IMG/VR virus record: IMGVR_UViG_3300025671_000318
Coordinates: 1 to 30,830 of that record
Direction: 5' to 3' (one strand)
DNA from: a virus
Length of the DNA: 30,830 nucleotides
Part shown: piece after piece, positions 2,435 through 30,830 of the stretch
Layout of the letters: each line of letters begins with the position of its first letter
Numbering within the stretch: the first letter of the stretch is position 1
Position numbers and translations under genes: made by a program
Notes under the pieces: model-generated
Told to the model about the DNA's origin: nothing
What the model saw: the letters and a program-made list of their open reading frames with translations, nothing else
Database searches by the model: none

Positions 2435-2797
2435 ATGGATTTTTCACAAGTAAAATTATTCGGAAAGAAAAGCTTCTCTGATCTCTTAAAAGAGATACAC
2501 GTTAATCAAAAAGATAAAGAAGTTCAACTCCGTTCTTTAATAGAAGGATTAAAACCTATGATCACCAGTCCTGGTGATGCAGTAATTATGGTTCCTTTAA
2601 TTAAAGAATATATGGAACTAGCTATTAAGAATGATGATGCCCTAATTAAAATGGCTGGTATCGTTCAACGTGCTATGAATAGTAAAATGGCTGATACAGA
2701 CGAGATACTTTCAGATGAAGATAAAGAGATGTTATTTAGTTCTCTTCAAGAATTAGATTCAAAAACCAAAGAAATAGAAGTTAAACATGCCGGTTAA
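2435..2797 (+). CDS. Small helical protein heading the baseplate block, function unknown
   Basis: A 120-residue, probably all-helical protein. The start MDFSQVKLFGKKSFSDLLKE precedes a run of amphipathic helices (around VQLRSLIEGLKPMI, DAVIMVPLIKEYMELAIKND, LIKMAGIVQRAMNS) and an acidic tail. It sits directly downstream of a putative late promoter and overlaps the hub gene by 11 bases, so it is probably expressed late with the tail genes. A tail-assembly chaperone or a small baseplate component would fit, but I recognise no family. Residues 18-20 (LKE) loosely match the [I/L]-x-E pattern of the tagged proteins. The preceding sequence is less similar and I do not count it as one of them. Confidence 0.7.
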   Translation: MDFSQVKLFGKKSFSDLLKEIHVNQKDKEVQLRSLIEGLKPMITSPGDAVIMVPLIKEYMELAIKNDDALIKMAGIVQRAMNSKMADTDEILSDEDKEMLFSSLQELDSKTKEIEVKHAG

Positions 2798-7272: not shown

Positions 7273-7737
7273 ATGAAATTAGAAGCTTTTAGAAAAATTA
7301 TTCGAGAAGAAGTAAGAGGTGTAATTAAAGAAGAACTTTCTTTGATTATGCAAACTCCTATTACTGAAACAAAAGTAGTCCAGAAGCCAGTTGTAGAACA
7401 AAAACAAACAAAACCTTCATTATCTGAATTAACAGAGACAGTACAACCTTCTGTTCCACAACCTCCCTTATTTGATTCACAAAACCCCTTAGCACAAATG
7501 TTAAATGAAACAGCTGCTTCAGGAGAATGGAGAAATATAAATGGAGGTGGATATACTTCTCAAAATGCAGTTGGGTTCCAAGGTGGAATGCCTGGTGGTG
7601 CAACTAAAGTAGTTGAAAGCGTAGATCAGATGTTAGCTGGAAAACAAGGAGCTACAGATATAAACCAAGTATCAATTGATGCTGTACCAGACTTTTCAGG
7701 TTTAATGGGTAAAATGAAAGAATCAGGCAAAATATAA
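7273..7737 (+). CDS. Small virion-associated protein with capsid-targeting-like N-terminus
   Basis: A 154-residue protein with three parts. Residues 1-26 are an amphipathic helix (MKLEAFRKIIREEVRGVIKE). Residues 27-70 are a Pro/Gln/Thr/Val-rich, probably disordered linker. Residues 70-154 are a Gly/Asn/Gln-rich region with no recognisable fold. The N-terminal helix has the same form as the starts of the genes at 26261-30830, with [I/L]-x-E at residues 10-12 and again at 18-20 (IKE). In T4 such N-termini target internal proteins to the prohead and are cut after Glu. It is odd to find one between baseplate genes. The gene has its own putative promoter and overlaps the gp25 gene by one base (TAATG). 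Confidence 0.6.
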   Translation: MKLEAFRKIIREEVRGVIKEELSLIMQTPITETKVVQKPVVEQKQTKPSLSELTETVQPSVPQPPLFDSQNPLAQMLNETAASGEWRNINGGGYTSQNAVGFQGGMPGGATKVVESVDQMLAGKQGATDINQVSIDAVPDFSGLMGKMKESGKI

Positions 7738-26260: not shown

Positions 26261-27061
26261 ATGTATAAATTACGAGATATAATCTTAGAACAATCCGTTA
26301 ATCCTAAGGCACTTATACTTGCTGGCTCTCCAGGAGCTGGTAAATCTTCGTTTATCGAAGGTGTAAAGAATGCTTTAATATTAAATGTAGATGATTTCTA
26401 CATGCGTAATCTAAAAGATTTAAATGTATCTTTAGATTTAAAAAATGCAAATGCTGAAGATCGAAGTAAAGCAGCACAAGCAATGGCTGCAGCTAATAAG
26501 GAATTTCGCCCAATGACACGTGAAATTATCTTAGGTAAAAAGAATTTTATCTTAGATGGAACAGCTGCTTCTTCTGGACCTACATTAAAATTGAAGGCTG
26601 AATTAGAAGAACTAGGCTATGATGTATTAATGGTATATGTATTTGCTTCACTAGAAAAAGCACTAGAACGAAATGATACACGATTTGATCGTTCAGGTGG
26701 AAAAGACAGAAGTTTAGCACCTGCTATCGTACTTCGTACTTGGAATAATATAACTCAAAACTACGAGTTGTATCAAAAAGAATTTGGAAACAATTTTGTA
26801 TCGGTTGTAAACGATAAAGCATTAGAAAAAGGAGAATCTATGAAATCTTTAGAAGATTTAATAGATAAATATCTTACACCCTATGCCCCAACTGATACAA
26901 AACCAAAAACCGATAAACAACAAGCTCGTTCTGATGCTTCAAAAGCAGAATTAGAGAAACAAATTAATGATTTTGTAGAATCAGATAAAGTAGAAGATAT
27001 CAAATCAAATTCCGTATCTAAAGACGAGGCAAAATCTAGAGTAAAACAGTTCTTCTCATGA
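26261..27061 (+). CDS. Zeta-toxin-like P-loop kinase with capsid-targeting-like N-terminal tag
   Basis: A 266-residue P-loop kinase. The Walker A motif is G22-S-P-G-A-G-K-S29 in LILAGSPGAGKSSFIEG. LNVDDFY (42-47) and NFILDGTAASSGPT (95-108) match the substrate and Asp positions of zeta-toxin/polynucleotide-kinase-like enzymes, and ALERNDTRFDRSGG supplies the lid arginines. Zeta proteins phosphorylate UDP-N-acetyl sugars; other relatives phosphorylate small molecules or RNA, so the substrate is open. The kinase fold begins at residue 16. The preceding 15 residues (MYKLRDIILEQSVNP) are an extra amphipathic helix with I-L-E at 8-10, matching the tag described in the findings. Residues 200-266 are a charged helical tail. 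No antitoxin gene accompanies it. Confidence 0.72.
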   Translation: MYKLRDIILEQSVNPKALILAGSPGAGKSSFIEGVKNALILNVDDFYMRNLKDLNVSLDLKNANAEDRSKAAQAMAAANKEFRPMTREIILGKKNFILDGTAASSGPTLKLKAELEELGYDVLMVYVFASLEKALERNDTRFDRSGGKDRSLAPAIVLRTWNNITQNYELYQKEFGNNFVSVVNDKALEKGESMKSLEDLIDKYLTPYAPTDTKPKTDKQQARSDASKAELEKQINDFVESDKVEDIKSNSVSKDEAKSRVKQFFS

Positions 27062-28017
27062 ACCCAGAAAAAATAGGTAACCAAATAGCGAAATCTATCC
27101 TATTAGAGGAAATTGTAGAGAAAGTTGCTCTATATCCTGGTGCATTCAAACCACCTCATAAAGGACACGTTGCTACTGCTTTAAGAGCAAAAGAAGGAGA
27201 CATAGATCGTGTTATTGTCTTCATGTCTACAAAAGAAAGAGATGGTGTTTCTGCAGAACAAGCTCAAAAAGTTTGGGACTTATACAAACAAAATAACCCA
27301 GAATTAGAGAATGTAGAGATTGTTCAAACACCCACCCCAGTTAAAGACGTTTACGATTACGCTAAAGACAACCCAGCTAATCTAGTTAGAGCTGTATTTG
27401 GTAAAGGGGAAGAAGATAGATTTAAATCATTATTAGATAAAGAAAAATATCCCCACGTAGAGGTATTTGATGCTGGGATAGAAGGCACATATTCAGCAAC
27501 TGATTTACGTAAAGCAATTCGCGATAACGATTTAGAGGCTATATCTGAATTTATACCTCAAGAGGTAAACGTAGACGATTTCAAATCTATATTTGATATG
27601 AAAGAAACTAAAAAAGACTATCTACAAGAAGCTAGATATAAAAAATTCCTAAACGAAGGTTGGGATAATTCAAAAGGTAAAGTAATAGGAGATTTTGTAA
27701 ATTATGTTAGCGAATATCTATCTATAAACAAACCTAAAATTAAACTAATTAACCAACCAGGCTATACCCAAGAATATCATAGTTTTGGAGGCTATTTACC
27801 CTCAGAAGAAAAAATAATGGTTGTGGTTCACAATCGCAATATGGCTGATATATTAAGAACTGTAGCACACGAGATGGTTCACCATATGCAGAATCTAGAC
27901 AATAGATTAACTCCAACTTCAGGTGAAGACGGATCACCAGATGAAAACGAAGCTAACTCTTTAGCAGCGGTTATAATGAGAAAATTTGGACGTGAAAATC
28001 CACACATATATGAATAG
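27058..28017 (+). CDS. Nucleotidyltransferase fused to HExxH metallopeptidase, with N-terminal tag
   Basis: A 319-residue two-domain protein. Residues about 24-170 are a cytidylyltransferase-like (NMN/phosphopantetheine adenylyltransferase) fold: ALYPGAFKPPHKGHVATALR contains the HxGH motif (His34, Gly36, His37), VIVFMSTKERDG follows, and GTYSATDLRKAI corresponds to the closing SxTxxR motif. Residues about 205-319 form a metallopeptidase-like domain with HEMVHH (271-276) and a downstream Glu298 in DENEANSLAAVIM that could be the third zinc ligand. The N-terminal MNPEKIGNQIAKSILLEE is an extra helix ending LLE17. Between the domains lie L-Q-E191|A and L-N-E200|G. The gene overlaps the kinase gene by four bases. 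The transferase call is firm, the peptidase call is by motif, and the substrates are unknown. Confidence 0.75.
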   Translation: MNPEKIGNQIAKSILLEEIVEKVALYPGAFKPPHKGHVATALRAKEGDIDRVIVFMSTKERDGVSAEQAQKVWDLYKQNNPELENVEIVQTPTPVKDVYDYAKDNPANLVRAVFGKGEEDRFKSLLDKEKYPHVEVFDAGIEGTYSATDLRKAIRDNDLEAISEFIPQEVNVDDFKSIFDMKETKKDYLQEARYKKFLNEGWDNSKGKVIGDFVNYVSEYLSINKPKIKLINQPGYTQEYHSFGGYLPSEEKIMVVVHNRNMADILRTVAHEMVHHMQNLDNRLTPTSGEDGSPDENEANSLAAVIMRKFGRENPHIYE

Positions 28018-28561
28018 AATAAAAGGTAGTTTAATGGAGTTATTACAAGAGGATCTTGCTAAAGCATATGACGTTTTTGTTGATATGGATGGGGTTTTAA
28101 CAGATTTTGAAAGACGTTTTGAACAATTTGCTGGTGTAACCCCAGATGAATATACTTCTCAAAAGACAATTCAATTTGGTAAAGAAAAAGCAGACGAGCA
28201 ATTTTGGGATTTGATAGATAAGCAAATCGGAGTTCGTTTTTGGGCTGGAATGCCATGGATGCCTCAAGGAGAGGATCTTTACAAATATATTAAAAAATAT
28301 AAACCAACCATTTTAACCTCACCCTCCAGAGATGAATCATCTCGTATAGGAAAAGGTGTATGGGTTAAAAGAAATATGTCTGGTGTACCATTAAAATTCG
28401 GATACAAAGCATCTGGTAAAGCAAAATACGCTGGACCAAATAAAATATTAATAGACGATAGAGAAGATAATATAGCCGCTTGGAAAGCCGCAGGAGGGAT
28501 TGGTATATTATTTAAATCAACAGAACAAGTTAAAAACGAGTTATCTAAACTAGGGTTATGA
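28010..28561 (+). CDS. HAD-superfamily phosphatase (5'-nucleotidase-like) with N-terminal tag
   Basis: A 183-residue HAD hydrolase. Motif I is DMDGV with Asp25 and Asp27 in VFVDMDGVLTDFE. Motif II is the Thr/Ser of PTILTSPSRDES (about 100-110). Lys residues near KASGKAKYAGPN can act as motif III. Motif IV is Asp149-Asp150 in KILIDDREDN. This fits the 5'(3')-deoxyribonucleotidase/HAD type found in phages. I start at ATG 28010, overlapping the upstream stop by eight bases. The frame extends upstream only to a TTG at 27986, and the ATG start gives MNRIKGSLMELLQE before the HAD fold, with L-Q-E at 12-14 like the other tagged proteins. Substrate is unknown; nucleotide dephosphorylation is the natural guess. 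Confidence 0.75.
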   Translation: MNRIKGSLMELLQEDLAKAYDVFVDMDGVLTDFERRFEQFAGVTPDEYTSQKTIQFGKEKADEQFWDLIDKQIGVRFWAGMPWMPQGEDLYKYIKKYKPTILTSPSRDESSRIGKGVWVKRNMSGVPLKFGYKASGKAKYAGPNKILIDDREDNIAAWKAAGGIGILFKSTEQVKNELSKLGL

Positions 28562-29133
28562 GCGAATCACGCTTAAACAAAGAATTTTCTGAACGCGATA
28601 TACAGAGAATGCGTAACATAGTTTCTGGGAATACAGCAGAGCGTACTAGAGTTCAAGCTGGCTACCAAAAACAAACAATAGAACATAGCGAGGGCGATGT
28701 ATGGGAAGAATCAGGTAAAACCTGGACTATAAAAAATGGTATCAAACAAACTATTACTAAACATGACAAACTAAGGGAAATGGTTAATATGCCCTTAAAA
28801 TGTCCTGAATGCGAACGCGCTATGAAAGCCACTAAATTAAATAAAAAAATGTGGCCTATACATGGTAAATGTTTCGATTGTGTAGTTGAGTATGAAACAC
28901 ATTTAAAAGCTACAGGAGGGTATGAAGAGTATGCTAAAAAATTAATGAATGCTAATAAAGATTCGTTTGTTAAAGATTACGAACAAGCAGTAGAAGCATA
29001 TATGAACTATACAGGAGATACATTTATGTCTGAAGATGGAGATTTAGAAAATTGGTCTAAAGTTAAATTAAATCCTGAAGTAATTAAAACACTAAAAGAT
29101 AACATTAAACAATTAAAAGAACTGGAGTTGTAA
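28558..29133 (+). CDS. Zinc-ribbon protein of unknown function
   Basis: A 191-residue protein with one clear metal-binding site: Cys82-x2-Cys85 (KCPECERAMK) and Cys105-x2-Cys108 (HGKCFDCVVE). The N-terminal 45 residues are charged and helical (ERDIQRMRNIVSGNTAERT), followed by a short sheet (DVWEESGKTWTIKNGIKQTI). The C-terminal half is helical, ending KTLKDNIKQLKELEL. Zinc ribbons of this form mediate DNA or protein binding. It is the only gene of the 26261-30830 cluster without a recognisable N-terminal tag, although it overlaps the HAD gene by four bases (ATGA). Its role is not apparent from the sequence. Confidence 0.7.
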   Translation: MSESRLNKEFSERDIQRMRNIVSGNTAERTRVQAGYQKQTIEHSEGDVWEESGKTWTIKNGIKQTITKHDKLREMVNMPLKCPECERAMKATKLNKKMWPIHGKCFDCVVEYETHLKATGGYEEYAKKLMNANKDSFVKDYEQAVEAYMNYTGDTFMSEDGDLENWSKVKLNPEVIKTLKDNIKQLKELEL

Positions 29134-29141
29134 TATCCTTA

Positions 29142-29149
29142 TATATTTA
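29142..29149 (+). promoter_or_regulatory. Putative late promoter -10/-7 element (site 5)
   Basis: The octamer TATATTTA lies in the 37-base gap 29134-29170, 21 bases before the ATG at 29171. The spacing is almost the same as at sites 3 and 4 (19 and 20). It would allow separate high-level expression of the charged coiled-coil protein that follows. Confidence 0.5.
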
Positions 29150-29170
29150 TTACAGAATAATTCTACAAAC

Positions 29171-29806
29171 ATGAAAAAACAAGAACTACGTAAACTCATC
29201 ACAGAAAATATTACAGATTGGCTAGCCGAACGTTCACAGCAAGAAGAAGCTGATAGTGGCGATATGGCATATACTGAGAAAGCTACTGTAAAAGAAAAAG
29301 TAGCCAAAATTGAAGATCAAATTGCTGAATTCTACTACGTTACAAAACCTACTAAAGAATCTTCTGTTGAAGAACTAGTAAAAAGTGGAGACGTATTTGA
29401 ATTTGCTATGAGTGGCCTAACTCGTGAAGACATTTCAGGTATCTACAAATCTGAAAGCAGAGCAAAATCAGCTGCAAATAAAATAATTAAAGAAAGAGAC
29501 ATTAAGCTTAAAGAAACCTATAAAAAAGGTCAAGACAAACTTAAGCAAATGGAAGCTTCAATTGACGAGATTAAAGGTCAAATTGAAGGTAAAATGTCTG
29601 AAGCCACTTCTAATCCAGATATGCGTGAAGCACTTACATCTGAATCTAACAGCTTAATGGAAAAACTTTCTATGCTAGAGATGCAAATGGATAAACTACG
29701 TGAGGCATTAGAAAAAGAAGGTTTACGTTTTGAGAAAAAATCGTCTAAAAAAGCTAAAAAAGAAGACGAGAAAGAAGACAAAAAAGACGAAAAAGAAGAT
29801 AAGTAA
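29171..29806 (+). CDS. Charged coiled-coil protein with capsid-targeting-like tag, prohead core candidate
   Basis: A 211-residue, strongly charged helical protein. Residues 1-12 (MKKQELRKLITE) form the tag, with L-I-T-E at 9-12. Residues about 40-95 are mixed, with FEFAMSGLTREDISGIYKSE as the least charged part. Residues 100-190 are long helices with coiled-coil spacing (KKGQDKLKQMEASIDEIKGQ; SLMEKLSMLEMQMDKLREAL). The last 19 residues are only Lys, Glu, Asp and Ala (KKAKKEDEKEDKKDEKEDK). T4 prohead core proteins (gp22, gp67, gp68) are also small, helical, highly charged and cut by the gp21 protease. A scaffold or internal-protein role is therefore plausible. A putative promoter directly upstream suggests high expression. 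Confidence 0.6.
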   Translation: MKKQELRKLITENITDWLAERSQQEEADSGDMAYTEKATVKEKVAKIEDQIAEFYYVTKPTKESSVEELVKSGDVFEFAMSGLTREDISGIYKSESRAKSAANKIIKERDIKLKETYKKGQDKLKQMEASIDEIKGQIEGKMSEATSNPDMREALTSESNSLMEKLSMLEMQMDKLREALEKEGLRFEKKSSKKAKKEDEKEDKKDEKEDK

Positions 29807-29809
29807 TCT

Positions 29810-30784
29810 ATGGACAAGTTAAAACTCAGATACTTAATCCGAGAGGCTATAGAAAATGTTGTTGGAGTTTCAGCGAAATTCTCTATAGGGGATAAAGTAA
29901 CTACGGTAGATGGAGACACTGCTACTGTTACAATGGCAGAACACCCGTTCTACACTGTAGAGTTAGAGGAGACTGGAACAACTAAATCGTTTAACTTTAA
30001 AGATTTAGCTCCATTCCAAGAAAAAGAAATATCTAAAACATCAGAAGGCATTATGCTCCAAGAAGGCGCAATTGCCTCTCCTGGTTTAATGTTCCATCAA
30101 CAACACAACAAACCACTATCAGAGTGTATTTTTAGAATAGGTTCAGAAGCATACGTAGACTTCTATGCCGAAGCAAGAGAATTATTCAACGAAGGCGTTC
30201 TAAAAGTAAACGAACTTGATAGAGATTTAATTCGCAACACTGATATAGGCGAATATGGAATATTTGAAGGCAAAAAAATTGCTTTAGATATTCCTTTTAT
30301 CAATGAACGAGAAGATGCTATCCATATTTTTGATGATGGTAAAGGAAATACAGCTCAAATAGATTGGACGCCTGATGGTTATTATGCTACAGTAGAAGGT
30401 GAATATGATTTTCAAATAGGCCCCGAAGAAACTATAGATGATATAGTAGACAAGGTTAAAGAAGAAGGCTTTATAAATAAAATATTTGAAGCTAAAGCAA
30501 AGAAAAAGAAAAAGGATCCACCAATTGGAAAACCAAAACGTGGTGGTTCAAAAGCATATTACGTTTACGTAAGAGATCCCAAAACCAAACGAATTAAAAA
30601 AGTATCATTCGGATCTGGTGGCCTAAGAGCTAAAATCAATAACCCTAAAGCACGTCAAGCCTTTGCAGCTCGTCACAGATGTAAAGAGAAAAACGATAGA
30701 ACAAAACCATCATACTGGTCTTGTAGATTACCACGTTACGCTAAGGCATTAGGTTTAGGTGCTAACAAAAATACATTTTGGTAG
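29810..30784 (+). CDS. Tagged multidomain protein with basic, Cys-containing C-terminal domain
   Basis: A 324-residue protein in three parts. Residues 1-12 (MDKLKLRYLIRE, then Ala) are the tag; IRE|A is nearly the T4 form. Residues 23-70 look like a small SH3-like barrel (KFSIGDKVTTVDGDTATVTM). Residues 100-225 are an acidic alpha/beta domain (IALDIPFINEREDAIHIFDD). After KIFEAKAKKKKKDPP comes a basic domain (248-324) with VRDPKTKRIKKVSFGSGG, FAARHRCKEKNDRTKPSYWS and Cys305, a form I recognise from marine phage proteins of unknown function. L-Q-E85|G and I-F-E227|A lie at domain borders, so processing could release the basic, possibly DNA-binding, domain. Function is unproven. Confidence 0.6.
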   Translation: MDKLKLRYLIREAIENVVGVSAKFSIGDKVTTVDGDTATVTMAEHPFYTVELEETGTTKSFNFKDLAPFQEKEISKTSEGIMLQEGAIASPGLMFHQQHNKPLSECIFRIGSEAYVDFYAEARELFNEGVLKVNELDRDLIRNTDIGEYGIFEGKKIALDIPFINEREDAIHIFDDGKGNTAQIDWTPDGYYATVEGEYDFQIGPEETIDDIVDKVKEEGFINKIFEAKAKKKKKDPPIGKPKRGGSKAYYVYVRDPKTKRIKKVSFGSGGLRAKINNPKARQAFAARHRCKEKNDRTKPSYWSCRLPRYAKALGLGANKNTFW

Positions 30785-30785
30785 A

Positions 30786-30830
30786 ATGGAAAATTTTGAT
30801 ATAAAAAAATATCTAGCGGAAGGTCGCTTA
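30786..30830 (+). CDS. 5' end of a further tagged gene (partial)
   Basis: An ATG one base after the preceding stop opens a frame that runs off the window after 15 codons (MENFDIKKYLAEGRL). The start again has the tag form, with Glu at residue 12 in Y-L-A-E followed by Gly. This matches both the position and the small P1' residue of the T4 gp21 site. The body of the protein lies outside the window, so its function is unknown. Confidence 0.6.
   Translation, partial: MENFDIKKYLAEGRL

Follow-up and report, generated by a model that had tools for sequence, protein, structure and literature searches.

Seven gene starts with a shared N-terminal tag

The window analysed here is the whole 30,830-nucleotide stretch of a viral record (IMG/VR IMGVR_UViG_3300025671_000318), and its right-hand end holds a cluster of seven genes, six of which begin with a short helical tag ending in [L/I]-x-E; a further tag lies near position 7273. 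All seven N-termini listed in the initial annotation were found at their coordinates, with the Glu at position 12 in precisely four cases. The features are:

26261..26290, + strand: tag MYKLRDIILE (Glu10) of a Zeta-toxin-like P-loop kinase, 26261-27061
27058..27108, + strand: tag MNPEKIGNQIAKSILLE (Glu17), preceding a nucleotidyltransferase domain, NMNAT/PPAT/cytidylyltransferase-like
27637..27657, + strand: internal tag- or cleavage-like site YKKFLNE, between the nucleotidyltransferase and HExxH metallopeptidase-like domains
27658..28017, + strand: HExxH metallopeptidase-like domain, predicted separate mature product
28010..28051, + strand: tag MNRIKGSLMELLQE (Glu14) of a HAD 5'-deoxyribonucleotidase, to 28561
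28558..29133, + strand: Cys-rich protein without the motif, the untagged exception within the cluster
29171..29206, + strand: tag MKKQELRKLITE (Glu12) of a coiled-coil, acidic-tailed protein, to 29806
29810..29845, + strand: tag MDKLKLRYLIRE (Glu12) of a protein with a basic C-terminal domain (PHROG 7595), to 30784
30786..30821, + strand: tag MENFDIKKYLAE (Glu12), of the FDLKKYLAE type, on a gene cut by the record end
7273..7308, + strand: tag MKLEAFRKIIRE (Glu12) of a 154-aa protein adjoining a gp25-like baseplate gene
2435..2494, + strand: motif match SDLLKE, judged a false positive

The proteins behind the tags are mutually unrelated, as first described: they comprise a Zeta_toxin/AAA kinase (Pfam Zeta_toxin, 3.5e-14), a cytidylyltransferase-like enzyme, an NT5C nucleotidase (PHROG 2643, 2.3e-27), a coiled coil and a basic-tailed protein. 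The nucleotidase begins at an ATG inside an open reading frame that itself opens with TTG, and orthologs keep both ATG and tag, which are conserved in nine homologs of the locus (the version in the cultured Flavobacterium phage immuto reads MKKVMGNLADLLLE). The tag at 7273 is likewise kept in G001, G002, immuto (MKLDLLKKLIKE) and G008 (MKSSQLKTLIKE), and the immuto homolog of the Cys-rich protein is, like the window protein, untagged.

The tags are not explained by chance

We scanned for the pattern hydrophobic-x-x-hydrophobic-[I/L]-x-E ending within the first 22 residues of a protein. The motif occurs in six of the seven cluster genes versus two of the 24 other genes in the window (Fisher p=0.00025), and composition-preserving shuffles predict about 0.3 matches in the cluster, with none of 20,000 reaching six. 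Equal frequency at the starts of early genes, named in the initial annotation as evidence against packaging, was not what we found: the motif is enriched in the cluster. The cluster tags are 10-17 residues long, where T4-type propeptides have about 10-19. The two matches outside the cluster are the genes at 2435 and 7273, of which the former probably counts as a false positive: in relatives, its sequence is conserved far past the Glu.

The resemblance might instead reflect chance or composition, as short amphipathic helices that happen to stand at protein starts; the motif is short, tag-like matches arise at a rate of about five per 200 genes, some matches are clearly fortuitous, and individual tags could be chance matches too. 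Against this stand the shuffles and internal-window controls, the conservation of the tag among orthologs despite variable flanks, and the near-identical tags on more than 60 unrelated proteins described below. For the cluster as a whole a chance or compositional origin is refuted, and we give it practically no weight.

Tag positions match the register of T4 internal proteins

In the T4 IPIII tag, residues 4 and 7 serve targeting and residues 8 and 10 serve processing (PMC9026906). The equivalent positions are conserved in 61 of 62 distinct homologs of the window kinase, all of which 61 retain the tag motif, and in 37 of 37 cyanophage NMNATs; the same scan applied to T4 recovers ipII, ipIII, gp24 and gp68. 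Counted back from the cleavage point, the most constant positions are P7 and P4 (hydrophobic), P3 ([I/L]) and P1 (Glu), while position 9 is free.

Because targeting and processing are separable in T4 (PMC9026906), the tags might bring proteins to the prohead through the scaffold and stay uncut, with the Glu merely part of a binding surface. Yet P3 and P1 are among the most constant positions and position 9 varies, and the same genomes encode an active-looking S77 protease with matching capsid and scaffold sites. Changing Glu10 to Asp in T4 keeps targeting and blocks processing (PMC9026906), and conservation of the Glu therefore argues for cutting; we regard retention of the tag as improbable.

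Modular tags, swapped on orthologs and shared by unrelated proteins

When FDLKKYLAEG was searched for irrespective of position, it lay two to three residues after an ATG in 136 of 140 cases. This tag type sits on 64 unrelated protein clusters, and two tag types have each been found with upwards of 60 unrelated bodies. The tag has been swapped in three of the kinase orthologs, and within one genome the tag DNA is 83% identical between genes as opposed to 31% in the DNA downstream, a disparity that also speaks against chance resemblance. Judged from these comparisons of sequence, the tags are modular: swapped between kinase orthologs and shared by unrelated bodies.

A probable packaged polyprotein

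The product of 27058-28017 joins two enzyme-like domains. Its N-terminal domain matches PHROG 395/3041 (cytidyltransferase) and contains GAFKPPHKGH and YSATDLR, resembling the NMNAT motifs sought (GxFxPPHxGH and (I/Y)SxTxxR); its profile match is to cytidylyltransferases in general, and its best PDB match, phosphopantetheine adenylyltransferase, reaches only E=0.004. Residues I10, L15 and E17 of its tag are invariant across six homologs. The metallopeptidase-like domain has a HEMVHH motif and matches a metallo-protease family (PHROG 87) weakly, as its homolog in phage B23 does M78/IrrE-like proteins. An AlphaFold model of the whole protein was of low confidence (mean pLDDT 57, pTM 0.39), and Foldseek matches to it were not meaningful. 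We dropped AKVILLE, in a 907-aa immuto protein, as a counterpart of the N-terminal tag, as the alignment instead pairs the tag with TLAE at about residues 282-286.

Between the domains, L198 and E200 of the YKKFLNE site are invariant in homologs, and the site aligns with MNYKQFLRE, the N-terminus of the stand-alone metallopeptidase gp332 of phage B23; the 27058-28017 product is therefore probably a packaged polyprotein. In the relative G004, larger fusions also include ParB and NT5C. For this multidomain protein only, the metallopeptidase domain rather than the prohead protease might do the processing: zincin-like peptidases have been proposed as processors of polyvalent proteins (PMC5512222), and an HExxH domain is present. 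The inter-domain site, however, carries the four-position signature of the N-terminal tags and corresponds to the start of the stand-alone B23 homolog, and we consider self-processing unlikely.

Tagged genes adjoin the head module in relatives

In close relatives, the tags concentrate upstream of the genes for terminase, portal, gp21 protease, scaffold and capsid. Eight of 12 genes in the head-proximal block of a 166-kb relative are tagged versus 12 of 195 elsewhere (p=7e-7), and in immuto the corresponding figures are 10 of 20 and nine of 207 (p=1e-7). The immuto tags include MKKSQLRQIIKE and MENFDLKKFLVE, with cleavage predicted after the Glu.

A gp21-type protease had been expected nearby or downstream, and with T4 as positive control an S77 match (108.9 bits, cut-off 27) was located in the 166-kb relative, some 16 kb downstream of its counterpart of the cluster. 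S77 proteases are encoded by nine of 12 related contigs, by immuto and by the cyanophages, and the conserved ELxHP and SSRG blocks of T4 gp21 recur in the enzymes of G001 and immuto. None was found in the 30.8-kb record itself, in a search that had no informative control; because relatives 85% identical to it have the protease, this phage presumably encodes one outside the record. Sites in the scaffold and major capsid protein, likewise anticipated, are present in G001 and immuto: the scaffold has AIAE, with a predicted cut before A, and the capsid sites LVVE and IVSE, again before A, align with T4 FLTE before A, with V at P3. Cargo homologs in phages that lack an S77 match (phiCbK, phiM5 and the 45-kb phage CRP-6, the last with a homolog of the 29810 protein) carry no tag.

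The shared N-termini could instead be docking or localisation signals for tail assembly, a replication factory or a chaperone, an idea that the position of the tagged 7273 gene in a baseplate module and the few tagged immuto genes outside the head-proximal block might favour. But tagged genes cluster beside head genes, the T4 head-targeting register is matched exactly, scaffold and capsid have the same type of site, and tagged enzymes have been detected in virions, all of which makes a destination other than the head very unlikely.

Tagged enzymes in cyanophage virions

Homologs of the window enzyme, nucleotidyltransferases of the NMNAT type, are both detected and tagged in virion proteomes published for T4-like cyanophages: an NMNAT with tag MKSFLQFLKE in S-SCSM1 and a cytidylyltransferase with tag MRFRQFIIE in S-SZBM1. 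All four of the non-structural, non-lysis enzymes detected in the S-CREM2 virion are tagged (a SAM hydrolase, an APH kinase, a Cas9-annotated nuclease and a cytidylyltransferase). S-CREM2 proteins with strict T4-register tags were detected in five of six cases, against 45 of the remaining 221 proteins (p=0.002), a test defined after the data were seen, though from published T4 positions. With the loose motif across all genes in those data, detection (six of 18 tagged versus 44 of 209) was not significantly associated with tagging (p=0.24), since tail proteins make up most of what was detected.

The S-CREM2 and S-SCSM1 authors left open whether such proteins are packaged or contaminants, co-purification being possible, and the available text of the S-CREM2, S-SCSM1 and S-SZBM1 papers does not mention a targeting tag. 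In the openly searchable literature, a capsid targeting sequence and cyanophages were linked only in one T4 review.

Relation to known systems and proposed mechanism

The best verdict is that the system is an expanded version of T4 capsid targeting. T4 IPII and IPIII (and Alt; targeting sequence MKTYQEFIAE, cut by gp21 at L/I-x-E) share with the window proteins a short N-terminal propeptide, hydrophobic P7 and P4, I/L at P3, Glu at P1 and unrelated mature bodies; an S77 protease and a scaffold are encoded as well (here, by relatives). T4, however, tags a handful of mostly non-enzymatic proteins, whereas here there are several tag types per genome, swapped and multiplied over dozens of bodies, some inside polyproteins, with kinase, nucleotidyltransferase, nucleotidase and metallopeptidase cargo. 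The virion enzymes of S-CREM2, S-SCSM1 and S-SZBM1 (NMNAT/cytidylyltransferase, SAM hydrolase, APH/ChoK kinase) include a homologous nucleotidyltransferase (PHROG 395/3041) in the same tag register, and cyanophage cargo, as here, adjoins the primase/late block; the cyanophage NMNAT, unlike the window protein, is not fused to a metallopeptidase. Phages and conjugative elements also encode polyvalent proteins, which are believed to enter the recipient along with DNA (Iyer et al., 2017; PMC5512222). These are mosaic and multidomain, and the window protein likewise appears to combine a zincin-like peptidase with a nucleotide-modifying domain, with ParB present as well in the relative G004, but here the likely processing signal is an inter-domain prohead-protease site, and the domains also occur as separate tagged genes. 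The giant phages SPN3US and 201phi2-1 package proteins with N-terminal propeptides that are cut after Glu, and eject them; their proteases have diverged far from gp21, and these phages belong to another lineage, in contrast to the T4-type S77 protease (in relatives) and T4 IPIII register found here.

Sequence comparison and published data, so far as they go, support the T4-like prohead packaging first proposed for these proteins. In all likelihood these are T4-type capsid-targeting tags that serve prohead loading, S77 trimming and injection of enzymes, although binding, cleavage, delivery and host roles are inferred. Tagged proteins would be made late in infection, and the amphipathic tag would bind the gp22-like scaffold core of the prohead via hydrophobic P7 and P4. 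The S77 protease would then cut after [I/L]-x-E, removing the tag and freeing the enzyme inside the head; a cut at an internal tag would split a polyprotein, here separating nucleotidyltransferase from metallopeptidase. By analogy to T4 Alt and IPI, the trimmed cargo may be ejected with the DNA and become active immediately on entering the new host, probably in nucleotide or NAD metabolism or against host defence.

More broadly, we lean towards the view that several lineages of marine T4-like phages share a general means of cargo loading, in which mobile, copied and swapped N-terminal tags address any protein to the prohead, inter-domain tags allow polyproteins to be split in the head, and a set of nucleotide/NAD and counter-defence enzymes is delivered with the genome. 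If so, a signal of 10-18 residues would predict packaged and injected proteins among the many phage proteins of unknown function, and natural tags would be available for loading proteins into phage heads. The scattered virion matches (NMNAT, kinases, SAM hydrolase), which the original authors were unable to tell apart from contaminants, would become predicted cargo. Cumulatively, these results suggest that such marine phages load enzymes into the particle in advance, remove the tags and inject the trimmed proteins along with their DNA.

Tagged genes cluster beside the head genes

Sequence, genomic context and virion data together strongly support packaging of the tagged proteins, and the predicted cleavage after the tag Glu (marked by a slash below) has good support. 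The window spans an entire IMG/VR virus record (30,830 bases) and is a fragment of a T4-like myovirus; its gp6-like baseplate protein shares 46% identity with that of the cultured Flavobacterium phage vB_FspM_immuto (immuto). All seven N-termini reported in the initial annotation are present in its sequence; at 28010, the ATG and the tag behind it are kept in relatives, and this start was therefore preferred to adjacent ones. One of the seven lies in the baseplate module, away from the head block:

7273-7737, tagged protein, tag retained in three related viral contigs (G001, G002 and G008) and in immuto

Within the tagged cluster, 28558-29133 encodes a Cys-rich protein (CPEC...GKCFDC) without a tag, which occupies the same position in immuto and had no match in a family search.

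Using a motif derived from the T4 IPIII tag (hydrophobic-x-x-hydrophobic-[I/L]-x-E, Glu at residue 8-22), we found matches in 6/7 cluster genes versus 2/24 other genes of the window (p=0.00025), and 0 of 20,000 shuffles gave six or more. Enrichment recurs in G001 (8/12 genes at 98.4-106.6 kb versus 12/195 in the rest, p=7e-7) and immuto (10/20 genes at 102.2-119.0 kb versus 9/207 in the rest, p=1e-7), and the rate outside clusters is little above chance level as judged from shuffles and internal windows; the motif is not equally common at early genes, and the result that the initial annotation had named as refuting packaging was not seen. The same scan of a 67-gene stretch of T4 matched ipII, ipIII, gp24 and gp68, but also gp2 and tk.2, so that a lone match is not proof, although the motif is still informative.

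What lies beyond the window's end was read from G001 (IMGVR_UViG_3300020182_000008, a 166-kb viral contig with ~85% protein identity to the window across the cluster), in which genes for terminase, portal, core proteins, S77 protease, acidic scaffold protein and major capsid protein come after the cluster. The protease (108.9 bits, cut-off 27) has the conserved ELxHP and SSRG blocks in common with T4 gp21, the scaffold N-terminus reads MSNTKFFNDAIAE/A, and the capsid protein carries LVVE/A (IVSE/A in immuto) at the position of T4 FLTE/A. By this gene order, these blocks and the aligned sites, the gp21-type protease and the scaffold and capsid sites that had been anticipated do exist in relatives, downstream of the cluster and beyond the window fragment.

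Tag positions are selectively conserved

The motif is kept in 61 of 62 distinct kinase homologs. Entropy among these homologs is 0.85-1.36 bits at the constrained tag residues 4, 7, 8 and 10, and 2.35-2.93 bits at the variable residues 3, 5, 6 and 9. The constrained positions are those defined by mutation in T4 IPIII, where residues 4 and 7 affect targeting and 8 and 10 processing (PMC9026906). Because IPIII with Asp at residue 10 is targeted yet stays uncut (PMC9026906), the constant Glu points to cutting and not to targeting alone. Across 37 distinct N-termini of cyanophage NMNAT, the tag register never changes: MK[S/N]-Phi-x-x-F-L-x-E/[A/S/G].

Nucleotidase homologs in phiCbK and phiM5, and the Roseobacter phage CRP-6 homolog of the basic C-terminal domain of the 29810 protein, are without tags, and S77 protease was not found in these three phages by a search that gave clear matches in T4 and nine others. 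The T4-like Cronobacter phage S13 has the protease and yet a nucleotidase with no tag, which shows that tagging is not inherent to the nucleotidase domain.

Swapped, multiplied and internal tags

The tag is a module. Three kinase orthologs (L084, L094 and L113) carry MNDFDFKKYLAEGRLLKE/ in place of MISLxxLLKE/, with the body past the swapped tag unaltered (AKGNPKAIILAGAPGAGK...), and in six genes of a 112-kb relative the tag DNA is 83% identical, bases 61-120 being 31% identical. In a position-blind scan by DNA pattern, FDLKKYLAEG stood 2-3 residues past the ATG in 136 of 140 matches listed, on 114 distinct bodies forming at least 64 unrelated clusters. By the same approach a second tag type, QKLAGIITE, is widespread in viral contigs: among the matches listed it immediately follows the ATG in 107 of 135, on 98 bodies in at least 63 unrelated clusters. 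MQKLAGIITE has the exact 4/7/8/10 register, and in immuto the longer form MKKQILSEQF(K/R)RMQ(K/F)LAGIITE occurs on unrelated genes:

L128:1675-2139, second tag type
L129:25061-25456, second tag type

Multidomain chains relevant to an internal tag are:

27058-28017, nucleotidyltransferase, then HExxH metallopeptidase-like domain, 319 aa
G004:C1:64460-67051, window nucleotidyltransferase and nucleotidase fused with metallopeptidase, plus ParB domain
G005:C1:25323-26834, the same three-part fusion

The two domains of the window protein are joined by a linker whose length differs greatly among relatives. This linker holds RYKKFLNE/, in which L198 and E200 do not vary among homologs. The metallopeptidase of Synechococcus phage B23 is its own gene, whose start, MNYKQFLRE/, aligns to this site; in the fused chains of the related contigs G004 and G005 (500-860 aa), FFSTILTE/ precedes the G004 nucleotidase. 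The simplest reading is that tagged genes were fused and the inner tag was retained as a putative cut site; the 27058-28017 chain could instead be processed by its own zincin domain, as has been proposed for polyvalent proteins (PMC5512222).

Tagged enzymes in cyanophage virions

Virion data come from published proteomes of three T4-like cyanophages. Leaving aside structural and lysis proteins, the S-CREM2 list contains four enzymes (PMC10665884), and all four are tagged:

SAM hydrolase, MKDFDSFLEE/
Cas9-annotated nuclease, ...LRFASFMAE/, Met at P3
APH/ChoK-like kinase, MKRFDAFLTE/
cytidylyltransferase, MKNFSSFLTE/

Tags are likewise present on two hypothetical proteins detected in the virion, gp13 and gp136 (the latter with Phe at P3). 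With Glu strictly at residue 10, 5/6 tagged S-CREM2 genes were detected versus 45/221 others (p=0.002); applied to every gene, the loose motif showed no significant association with detection (p=0.24). The virion-detected NMNAT of S-SCSM1 (PMC9602691) bears MKSFLQFLKE/ and the cytidylyltransferase of S-SZBM1 (PMC9146016) MRFRQFIIE/. The authors of the S-CREM2 and S-SCSM1 proteomes could not rule out co-purification (PMC10665884; PMC9602691); the tag on these enzymes argues for packaging instead.

Since S-CREM2 gp154 and the window nucleotidyltransferase protein both match PHROG 395 and 3041, we group the cyanophage virion NMNAT and cytidylyltransferases with the latter. A second cargo family, PHROG 727 (a Cys-rich basic module), is found in S-CREM2 virions as gp160, is represented by tagged proteins in both immuto and G001, and is a candidate internal DNA-associated protein family:

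L135:4737-5009, G001
L128:1184-1654, immuto
L172:28342-29235, S-CREM2 gp160

The depositors of S-CREM2 label gp12 (L171:7704-10313), the virion-detected nuclease listed above, a Cas9-like CRISPR-associated endonuclease; its targeting-like tag ends FASFMAE at residue 25, and a Pfam search gave no match, which makes the Cas9 annotation doubtful.

Proposed loading and delivery

In the mechanism we propose, the tag would bind the scaffold, the prohead would then close, the S77 protease would cut after [I/L]-x-E, and the trimmed cargo would stay in the head and be injected; delivery into the host would follow from T4 precedent. The principle of tag-directed loading is already known from T4. In the open-access papers searched we found no account of the system's extent in marine T4-like phages, nor descriptions of swapped or multiplied tags, enzyme cargo sets or internal tags. 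According to a review, tag loading is possibly general among T4-like phages (PMC9026906). Our guess is that the cargo (kinase, NMNAT-like enzyme, deoxyribonucleotidase and peptidase) may serve nucleotide/NAD supply or counter-defence.
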